Assembly (NCBI RefSeq): GCF_020176715.1
Contig: NZ_JAIVMF010000009.1
Location: 1-64,000 of the forward strand
Direction: 5' to 3'
Length of the DNA: 64,000 nt
Source of the DNA: Stappia stellulata
Lineage (GTDB): Bacteria; Pseudomonadota; Alphaproteobacteria; Rhizobiales; Stappiaceae
Both the position numbers and the translations under genes were made by a program. Below, piece after piece: positions 12,060 through 16,605 of the stretch. The notes beneath the pieces are model-generated. The model was not told the origin of the DNA. It made no database searches and saw only the letters and a program-made list of their open reading frames with translations. Position 1 is the first letter of the stretch; the number at the start of each line of letters is the position of its first letter.

Positions 12060-13271
12060 ATGCCGCGCCTCGCCCTGCCCTGTCTGCTCGCTTTCCTCGT
12101 CCTGTCGATTGCGCCCGCGCTCTCGATCGCCGGCCCCTATGACACGCAGTTCCGCCAGTTCCTCGACCGCGAGATCGCCCCGGCCGCGATCTCCGCCGGC
12201 GTTCCGCAATCCGTCGTCACCCGCGAACTGTCCGGCCTGACGCCGGATACCTCGCTTCCCGGTCTCGGACGCCCCGATGCACCGGAGGCGCCGCCAAGCG
12301 TCAACTATCAGTCTGAGTTCCGCGCACCGGCCGGCTATTTCCGCGACAGCCAGTTCAACGCGCTCGTTGCGCAAGGCCGTCGCCTCGCGAAACAGCACGC
12401 GACGACGCTTGCCCGGATCGAGCGCGAGACCGGCGTCCCGGGCCGCATCGTGCTGGCGATCTGGGCGCGGGAATCGGGATACGGGGCGGCAAAAATCCCC
12501 AAGGACGCGCTGCGCACGCTCGCGACCCGCGCCTTCATGGGCCAGCGGCGCGATCTCTTCCGCCAAGAAACCATCGCGGCGCTTCAGATTCTCGCCGAAG
12601 GGCATATCTCCCGCGCGCGGATGAAAAGCTCCTGGGGCGGGGCCATGGGCCAGCCGCAGTTCCTGCCCTCAAGCTTCCTGCGCCATGCGGTCGACTACGA
12701 CGGCGACGGGCGGCGCGACATCTGGACCTCGGTTCCCGACACGCTCGCCTCCATCGCGCGCTATCTCCAGTGGCACGGCTGGGTCGCCAATCGCGACTGG
12801 GGCTATGAGGCGGTGATCCCGCGATCCGTCTCCTGCACCAACGAGGGGCCGGATCGCGGGCGTCCGATCTCCGAGTGGGTCGCCGCCGGGGTGAAACGGG
12901 TGAAGGACCGCCCCTTCCCCGCGCATGAGGTGCCGCAACCGGGCTTCCTGCTGATGCCGGCCGGACGATACGGCCCGGCCTTCATCGCCACCGACAATTT
13001 CTACGTGCTGAAGTCCTACAATGAGTCCGACGTCTACGCGCTCTTCGTCGGCCATCTCGCCGACCGCTACGGCAACAACACAGGCTTCGTGCAGGACTGG
13101 ACGCCGATCAAAACGCGCTCGCGCGGCGCGGTGCGCAAGATCCAGCTCGAATTGGAAGCAAAGGGCCACGACGTCGGCGGCGCCGACGGCCTGATCGGCT
13201 TCAAGACCCGCCGCTCACTGGGTGCTGCTCAGGAAAAGGCGGGGCGAAAGGCGACGTGTTGGCTGGAGTGA
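12060..13271 (+). CDS. Lytic murein transglycosylase (MltB/SLT_2 family)
   Basis: A 403-residue exported enzyme that cleaves the glycan strand of peptidoglycan. Residues 1-24 form a signal peptide ending SIAGPYD. The SLT_2 catalytic domain carries the acid glutamate E138 in AIWARESGYG, then GAMGQPQFLPSSFL. The C-terminal 60 residues form a peptidoglycan-binding_1 domain (VRKIQLELEAKGHDVGGADG). GGAGATCCCG precedes the ATG. It follows recR by about 77 bases but has no functional link to it. No lipobox cysteine is seen, so it is probably soluble in the periplasm. Confidence 0.9.
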   Translation: MPRLALPCLLAFLVLSIAPALSIAGPYDTQFRQFLDREIAPAAISAGVPQSVVTRELSGLTPDTSLPGLGRPDAPEAPPSVNYQSEFRAPAGYFRDSQFNALVAQGRRLAKQHATTLARIERETGVPGRIVLAIWARESGYGAAKIPKDALRTLATRAFMGQRRDLFRQETIAALQILAEGHISRARMKSSWGGAMGQPQFLPSSFLRHAVDYDGDGRRDIWTSVPDTLASIARYLQWHGWVANRDWGYEAVIPRSVSCTNEGPDRGRPISEWVAAGVKRVKDRPFPAHEVPQPGFLLMPAGRYGPAFIATDNFYVLKSYNESDVYALFVGHLADRYGNNTGFVQDWTPIKTRSRGAVRKIQLELEAKGHDVGGADGLIGFKTRRSLGAAQEKAGRKATCWLE

Positions 13272-13278
13272 GGGACTG

Positions 13279-13398
13279 TCAGTCTTTCCCGGTGTCGTCG
13301 CGTTTCGGGAGCTTGCGGACCAGCAACCATCCGGCAAAGCCGATAAACGCAAAGGTGCCGATATTGAGGAGGGTATCGATCAGGTCGCCCGTGATCAT
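13279..13398 (-). CDS. 39-residue membrane microprotein coupled to the BCCT transporter gene
   Basis: A small open frame beginning MITGDLIDTLLNIGTFAFIG overlaps the BCCT stop codon in an ATGA (13395-13398). It encodes one hydrophobic segment (about residues 7-27) followed by a positively charged tail, LVRKLPKRDD. On the minus strand GGAGAGGAG lies about 8 bases before the ATG. The overlap, ribosome site and clean membrane-helix pattern argue for a real gene, perhaps an accessory subunit of the transporter. I know of no named family. Confidence 0.6.
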   Translation of the reverse strand: MITGDLIDTLLNIGTFAFIGFAGWLLVRKLPKRDDTGKD

Positions 13399-14885
13399 TC
13401 AGACGTCTCCTCTCCAAGCGCGCGGACGAAACACACCATCAGCAAAACGGTGATGAAGACGAAGGGCAAGGCTCCGAGCGCGATCAGCTTCTTGATCGCA
13501 TCCATCGATCCAGACAGGATCATCGCATAGCCCAAGACACCCAGGAGCACGCCCCAGACAAGCCGGATCCGCGGCTTGGGGTCGGGATCGCCGCCAGTCG
13601 AAAACGTGCCGAGCACAAAGGCCGCACTCACCACGCTGGTGACGATAAAGAGGAAGGCGGCAACAATCGTGGCAAGCGTCGTCACGGTCGAGAACGGCAT
13701 GCGCTCCAAGAGCGCGAAGGTGGCACGTTCCGCGTTTGTCGCTGCCATTGCTGCCAGCTCTCCTGCGCCTTGGATCGTTTCATACAGGCCAATGCCGCCA
13801 AACACGCCGAACCAGATCACCGAAAACAGTGTCGGACCGATCAGCACACCGAACACGAACTCGCGGATCGTGCGCCCCCTGGAGATACGCGCGACAAACA
13901 CCCCGACAAACGGCCCCCAGGCGATCCACCAGACCATATAGGTCAGTGTCCAGTCGGCGAAGGATTGCGCAACCTCGTCGCCGAAGAAGGTGAAGGTTTG
14001 CAACCCGCGGGGAACCACATCTGTCAGATACTGACCGAAACTGCCGAGAACCGAATTCAGGAGAAATTGCGTCGGCCCGAAAATCACCACGAAGACAACC
14101 AGCGCGATGGCGATCAGCATCGCCAGGTTGGACAGTTTCGACATGCCGCTGCCCAGATCGATCATCAGCGCCGGAAGATAAAACGCCACCATGGCAACGA
14201 ATACGGCACCGACGAGCATTGCGCCCGGCCCGGTGCCGCCGACCAGGACATCGATGCCGTCGGCCACCTGGAACACGCCCATGGCGATCGATCCACCGAC
14301 ACCGATGGCAATGGCCACAATCGCCATGAAGTCCGACATCCACCCAAGCCCGCGTGCCCAGCGTTCCCGGGGAAACAGATAGGTTATCGGTGCACTGACC
14401 AGCATGGGCGTACCGCGCCGGAACGCGAAATAGGCGATCACCAGCGCCGTCGTTCCGTAAATCGCCCAGGCGTGGATCCCCCAATGAAAGATCGTGGTGA
14501 CCAGCGCCCTTTCGGCAGCGGCAGGCTCTATGACAAAGTTTCGCGCGAATTCGAAGTGAATGAGCGGTTCGGCAACTGCCCAAAACAGCAGACCGACACC
14601 CATACCGGCGGCAAACAGCATCGCGATCCACGACGGGGTCGAGAACTCGGGACGGTCGTCATCCGTGCCCAGCCGGATTTCGCCGTAGCGGGAAAAGGCC
14701 AGGGCGAAACAGAAGAGCAGCATTCCCGAAACGGTCAGCATCAGGAACCATCCGCGGCTGCGGAAATACTGATCGACGATAGACGAGGCGATAGAGACCA
14801 GGCTTTCGGCATCGACCACCCCCCAAATACCGATAACCGATATCGATGAAAGGGAGCAGAAAAGCAGGGCTTGCTTGGCGGTCAT
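13395..14885 (-). CDS. BCCT-family transporter (betaine/choline/carnitine type)
   Basis: A 496-residue, 12-helix secondary transporter, probably Na+- or H+-coupled, for betaine-like compounds used in osmoprotection or as nutrients. Diagnostic pieces are AAGMGVGLLFWAVAEPLIHF, FHWGIHAWAIYGTTALVIAY, and TYMVWWIAWGPFVGVFVARI with the conserved tryptophans of the substrate pathway, followed by SRGRTIREFVFG. The ATG of MTAKQALLF was chosen; an upstream alternative 13 codons earlier lacks support. Short hydrophilic ends suggest a carrier without the long osmosensing tails of BetP. A 39-residue microprotein overlaps its stop. Confidence 0.9.
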   Translation of the reverse strand: MTAKQALLFCSLSSISVIGIWGVVDAESLVSIASSIVDQYFRSRGWFLMLTVSGMLLFCFALAFSRYGEIRLGTDDDRPEFSTPSWIAMLFAAGMGVGLLFWAVAEPLIHFEFARNFVIEPAAAERALVTTIFHWGIHAWAIYGTTALVIAYFAFRRGTPMLVSAPITYLFPRERWARGLGWMSDFMAIVAIAIGVGGSIAMGVFQVADGIDVLVGGTGPGAMLVGAVFVAMVAFYLPALMIDLGSGMSKLSNLAMLIAIALVVFVVIFGPTQFLLNSVLGSFGQYLTDVVPRGLQTFTFFGDEVAQSFADWTLTYMVWWIAWGPFVGVFVARISRGRTIREFVFGVLIGPTLFSVIWFGVFGGIGLYETIQGAGELAAMAATNAERATFALLERMPFSTVTTLATIVAAFLFIVTSVVSAAFVLGTFSTGGDPDPKPRIRLVWGVLLGVLGYAMILSGSMDAIKKLIALGALPFVFITVLLMVCFVRALGEETSE

Positions 14886-14973
14886 ATCGTGTCTCCCGGA
14901 CCGTCCGCGTGCGAACCCGCACAAGAAAGAACTGTCTCATAGGTACCGGGTCGATCGCCCACCGACAATCGGC

Positions 14974-16601
<1,628 letters not shown>

Positions 16602-16605
<4 letters not shown>

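Follow-up and report, generated by a model that had tools for sequence, protein, structure and literature searches.

A candidate single-helix subunit encoded behind one branch of BCCT carriers in marine alphaproteobacteria

The small open reading frame and its BCCT neighbour

The 64,000-nucleotide stretch of Stappia stellulata DNA analysed in this work (the window) carries on its minus strand a gene for a carrier of the BCCT family, whose 3'-end overlaps the start of a small open reading frame (ORF). The features of the locus are as follows.

13395..14885, minus strand: BCCT carrier, 496 aa from its ATG, Pfam family PF02028; structure model with a TM-score of about 0.91 to TmaT and BetP
13279..13398, minus strand: small ORF, 39 aa, proposed BCCT small subunit; one predicted membrane helix (residues 2-27), conserved and under purifying selection
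13395..13398, minus strand: ATGA overlap of the BCCT stop and the small-ORF start, read from the sequence; the same or a longer overlap occurs in most relatives
13407..13415, minus strand: GGAGAGGAG, Shine-Dalgarno-like, read from the sequence, 8 nt ahead of the small-ORF ATG

The carrier matched the Pfam BCCT model with 484.5 bits, far above the cut-off of 27, and its structure model (mean pLDDT 87.5) has the BCCT fold, as judged from its TM-scores of about 0.91 to the TmaT and BetP structures; the partner protein is thus a BCCT by both family match and fold. An in-frame TTG at 14924 is a possible alternative start. An ORF named by eye as belonging to an ABC transporter (14974-16605) lies upstream of the carrier gene on the same strand, and a plus-strand ORF (12060-13271) located downstream converges on the small ORF. 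Scanning of positions 13100-15100 for promoters and terminators gave nothing above chance worth reporting on the minus strand.

The four nucleotides shared by the BCCT stop and the small-ORF ATG, together with the ribosome site, had been pointed out in an earlier note on this sequence, and both are present; moreover, a Shine-Dalgarno-like motif precedes 52 of the 60 distinct copies of the small ORF, compared with 8.5% for windows drawn at random from these loci (for one divergent copy, L136, an internal ATG was taken as the start). The single membrane helix proposed at the same time was reproduced by the AlphaFold2 model of the 39-residue protein, which is one helix spanning residues 2-27 with a mean pLDDT of 84.1. 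The expectation that most gene finders would miss such a gene held in part: three plasmid records, whose gene table describes itself as incomplete, list no gene at this place, whereas two Roseobacter denitrificans plasmid records annotate a hypothetical protein. No second copy of the small protein was found in its own genome, the next matches having E values of 2.7 and 3.2.

Distribution, pairing and conservation

A BCCT search of 61 genomes, that of the window included, returned 12 places at 52-100% identity (L002-L013), in each of which a homologue of the small ORF lies at the BCCT stop or overlaps it, and the 18 other BCCT loci fetched (L014-L031, 34-38% identity) had no small ORF. A profile of the small protein made from 12 rows (A1) matched 14 of the 297 genomes drawn from the order at E ≤0.01, of which 11 were strong and 3 weak (E 0.005-0.008) matches. 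With a profile of 18 rows (A3) the small ORF was found in 4 of 385 genomes of the class at a threshold of 0.001, in 3 of 299 genomes of the phylum, none of them new, and in 41 of 87 genomes of the window's family. Comparison of the lists by eye disclosed that a profile of the BCCT subfamily (E ≤1e-140) selects the same 41 family genomes. The frame is therefore conserved in relatives, which was the check set in the earlier note: it stands behind the BCCT in 41 of the 41 family genomes that have this carrier, and it also occurs in other families and orders. All strong matches of the small ORF with upstream sequence lie behind this BCCT; one strong match, in genome G328, is at a contig start, where the upstream gene is not visible.

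The pairing was also analysed from the side of the carrier. Among 154 BCCT rows, from which identical proteins had been removed and near-copies kept, 63 were followed by the small ORF, 90 were not (two of these having less than 60 nt downstream) and one (L055) ended at a contig edge, a split that was later confirmed; the comparison BCCTs come mostly from the best 80 of 591 loci and do not stand for all BCCTs. In a tree of 138 non-redundant BCCTs, obtained by a quick search with SH-aLRT support, the 50 carriers that have the ORF group together in a single branch (support 100), and the other 88 lack it. Presence of the ORF requires a single change on this tree, versus a mean of 41.1 when the labels are shuffled. 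The pair is found in marine alphaproteobacteria, with the small ORF right behind one BCCT branch.

The spacing between the two genes varies among relatives, with values of -4, -14, -7, +1 and +2. In three genomes (G953, G983 and G985; loci L181, L184 and L149) an ORF of 139-162 codons has come to lie between them and separates them by 449-459 nt. The small ORF persists there, so its retention is not just a by-product of the BCCT end. These intervening ORFs have a signal-peptide-like start, and the one scanned, from L184, gave no Pfam match. Plasmids of Roseobacter denitrificans, Roseibium aggregatum, Alisedimentitalea and a further strain of the Rhodobacteraceae carry the pair as well; on the Roseobacter denitrificans plasmid pTB1 (L126), which is typed as conjugative, it adjoins an IS481 transposase gene and gltS. 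In the order-level relative G053 (L009) the gene for a 326-aa membrane protein, urea-transporter-like by eye, comes after the pair and starts 96 nt past the BCCT stop. No constant neighbour other than the small ORF was seen in seven loci inspected by eye (L046, L048-L050 and L052-L054) and five annotated plasmids, and no exact substrate is therefore proposed.

The lineages nearest to the branch show a different neighbour. At L131:3467-5308, L058:1809-3653 and L059:4455-6278, and by eye also at L056, L057, L060 and L065, the BCCT gene is directly followed by one for a lipoprotein-like protein of about 260-640 aa. The three of these that were scanned contain an OpuAC glycine-betaine binding domain (E 1.6e-43, 6.1e-49 and 2e-38), and two of them also an NMT1-like domain. 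Pairing of a BCCT with a substrate-binding protein would be unusual.

Selection was assessed on 56 distinct stretches of 25 codons, beginning at codon 5 of ORFs of the window type, so that the overlap with the BCCT gene is practically excluded; the single copy of L009 and L039 and that of L041, in which the ORF is shorter, and L136, which lacks the motif used for placing, were left out. Across the 28 closest pairs with no shared member there were 257 synonymous and 160 nonsynonymous differences, giving a pN/pS of 0.19, and the substitutions were distributed 107/52/258 over codon positions 1, 2 and 3. When the 641 of 1540 pairs with dS of 0.05-1.5 were considered, the median dN/dS was 0.30 and only 0.8% of them reached 1. 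Equal synonymous and nonsynonymous rates, which the earlier note had named as an outcome that would refute it, are not what is found; on these substitution patterns the small ORF is a gene under purifying selection.

The conserved portion of the protein is its helix, with the pattern D-T-x2-N followed by F16 and W24. D8, T9, N12, F16 and W24 are invariant in the 56 copies, although the rows were placed by the T and N of the motif and the invariance of T9 and N12 is partly built in; A17 (51 copies), F or Y at position 18 (56), I19 (52) and G20 (50) are nearly so. Among the copies outside this set, L136 (genome G427), aligned by eye, keeps D8, N12, F16 and F18 and has M at position 9 and Y at position 24, while L009 has A24 instead of W24; the loss of T9 and W24 in the former and of W24 in the latter counts against the subunit reading developed below. 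Conservation follows the helical period (moment within 94-106 degrees, p 0.03 by permutation), which fits a packed face; that the moment is largest at 90 rather than 100 degrees counts against this reading. The portion past R28 varies or is missing. The basic tail, listed earlier as a feature of the protein, is accordingly not family-wide, R28 occurring in 46 and K29 in 30 of the 56 copies with several copies stopping there, and as a working part it was rejected.

Sodium sites and altered positions of the carrier

Residues of the clade were related to BetP on the assumption that chain 9i66 bears an 11-residue tag, which agrees with the published residue names. The aromatic box (BetP W189, W194, Y197, W374 and W377) is kept as W135, W140, Y143, W320 and W323, every one of them in 62 of 62 rows of the clade. 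The Na2 site, defined in BetP by A147, M150, F464, T467 and S468 (PMC6562126, in part), is likewise kept, with M95, F413, T416 and S417 in 62 of 62 rows and Ala (56 rows) or Ser (6 rows) at A92.

The first Na+ site is T246, T250 and F380 in BetP (PMC6562126, also PMC6400524, each in part), and a different one, including D421, has been described for DddT (PMC13270143, in part); the distance to the Na2 residues was used to place D421 on BetP D470, a mapping of our own. In 62 of 62 clade rows the positions of T246, T250 and D421 are occupied by I/V, V/L and V, respectively. Both described Na1 sites are thus impaired in the clade, polar residues being lost at the T246/T250 and D421-equivalent positions. 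These losses call for a cautious reading. The position of T250 is hydrophobic also in 82 of 83 comparison BCCTs. DddT has Ile and Ala at the BetP Na1 site, yet it is Na+-coupled; it thus resembles the clade in lacking T246 and T250 and differs from it in retaining the Asp (PMC13270143, in part). Relative to BetP, the clade has T246 replaced by I/V, N309 by A, D470 by V and W371 by M; together with G201A (window residue 201), these make up the five positions that do not vary among the 83 comparison BCCTs but are altered in the clade. The adjacent lineage, represented by seven rows, already has V or I at T246 in 7/7 and V at D470 in 2/7, so that part of the change predates the small subunit. The altered positions bear on Na+ coupling whatever the role of the small ORF.

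That the carrier couples one Na+, at Na2 only, is only a prediction from these residues. A bolder proposal is a BCCT of two proteins with its ion coupling reorganised about the partner helix, in which the conserved D8, T9 and N12 would supply polar groups or conformational control in place of the lost T246, N309 and D470, resulting in a one-Na+ or recoupled heteromer; it is considered a long shot. The last three helices of the BCCT hold more clade-specific changes than expected (16 of 45 versus 8.8, p 0.006), an enrichment tested post hoc with no single helix below 0.05, and this is at most a weak pointer to a docking site.

Proposed role and comparison with known small subunits

The one-to-one pairing, the fixed gene order, the coupled start and the conserved face within the membrane speak for a constant subunit made of a single helix, and we assign a probability of about 0.7 to the 39-residue protein being a dedicated subunit of one BCCT subfamily. 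The small protein would be made from the BCCT mRNA by coupled translation, as suggested by the ATGA overlap and the ribosome site, and its acidic N-end and the R/K at the C-end of the helix suggest insertion N-out, C-in. It may pack on the carrier via the conserved stripe D8-N12-F16-I19/G20-W24. As the pairing is strict, it is most likely a permanent structural part that the carrier would need to fold, to remain stable or to be active, and not a regulator that acts from time to time. The carrier probably takes up a quaternary-ammonium-like solute together with Na+ bound at Na2 only, judging from the published site definitions. The "real small subunit" of the earlier note is hence retained as the best reading, for which conservation, purifying selection and pairing argue. 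Against it, a search of the PDB found the solved BCCTs listed without such a partner, although none of them, at ~33% identity to the carrier, comes from the branch with the small ORF; no PDB sequence matched the small-protein profile at E up to 1.

It is possible, but rather unlikely, that the helix is a regulator tuning the carrier in the manner of AcrZ, SgrT or MgtS, perhaps in place of the osmosensing cytoplasmic C-terminal domain of BetP; small proteins modulating transporters and this regulatory domain are both treated in the review PMC10710835 (in part). The window BCCT aligns to BetP until residue 492 of its 496, while BetP chain 9i66 runs 49 residues further, as such a replacement would have it, but short C-ends are not specific to the branch, since tails of 2-3 residues also occur in at least nine partnerless BCCTs (in the L021-L030 region). 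A tail-based sensor is at odds with the variability of the small protein's cytoplasmic tail, and a constant part better explains why the small ORF is strictly paired, within one operon, with a single BCCT branch. Less probable still is a stabiliser or insertion factor that shields the BCCT from proteolysis during assembly and is absent from the working carrier. Small membrane proteins that protect transporters from FtsH or expose them to it are described (PMC10710835, in part), and coupled translation would place the small protein at the site of BCCT insertion; however, a conserved face with intramembrane polar residues and an exclusive single partner suggest lasting and specific packing. A regulator or an assembly factor therefore fits the genetics less well than a constant subunit.

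Membership in the conserved-helix family of MscS-like mechanosensitive channels (PF05552) is very improbable and was rejected: the model matches residues 3-30 with E 0.0088, and 4 of 18 members of the small-protein family match it at E up to 1, but its 16.3 bits are below the curated cut-off of 22, and three other unrelated families match two members each (best E 0.011 to 0.015), so that generic helix similarity is the likely cause. The NCBIfam scan gave only SA1362_fam (3 of 18 members, best E 0.017), and the sequence family of the small protein has no Pfam or NCBIfam model passing a cut-off. A chance ORF without function, open through composition or the BCCT overlap, has a negligible probability: other frames are often open over the 25 codons in this GC-rich DNA (one other frame in 40 of 56 copies, two reverse frames in 47 and 43 of 56), so that openness alone proves little, but the reading is refuted by the codon-position pattern and the pN/pS, and conservation of the profile across orders, the ribosome sites and retention away from the overlap speak against it as well.

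BetP, CaiT, BetT and other BCCTs serve as model transporters and are treated as single-gene proteins. The present analysis suggests that betaine-type transporters of this branch, usually thought solitary, have a dedicated small subunit; if so, a branch never found without its one-helix gene would represent the first BCCT heteromer among the literature searched. Functional work on the branch that uses only the large gene might in that case fail or give misleading results, and the pair would offer a minimal system for the effect of one accessory helix on a LeuT-fold carrier. As the same branch has altered positions invariant in the comparison, partner and ion coupling can be tested together. The statement that no such partner is known for BCCT carriers agrees with our searches of open-access papers, one of them too broad to be selective, which turned up none.

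Compared with the solved BCCTs (BetP, TmaT, BetT, DddT and CaiT), the carrier shares the fold, the Na2 residues and the aromatic box, and its clade differs from them in coming with a second gene. AcrZ is similar to the small protein in having one helix, fewer than 50 residues and a transporter as its partner (PMC10710835, in part). The partners of AcrZ and KdpF differ from the present one, being an RND pump and a P-type ATPase, respectively, and no KdpF or AcrZ model was among the matches of the family scans. KdpF, too, is a single helix of fewer than 50 residues that accompanies a transporter. A closer analogy than KdpF is MetS, the small subunit of MetPS, an NSS-type importer of methionine and alanine in Corynebacterium glutamicum; MetS is also a short membrane protein whose gene adjoins that of a LeuT-fold Na+ carrier. 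The carrier there belongs to the NSS family and here to the BCCT family. The MetS models PF16951 and NF033493 both matched the C. glutamicum control and gave no match in the window's genome, nor was a MetS model among the matches of the 18 family members scanned; with no model match and a partner that is not NSS, membership in the MetS family was rejected. By analogy, the small protein most likely works as MetS does in MetPS. The arrangement of a small subunit with a LeuT-fold carrier is thus known from MetS/MetP, while the BCCT partner and the sequence family of the small protein are new.
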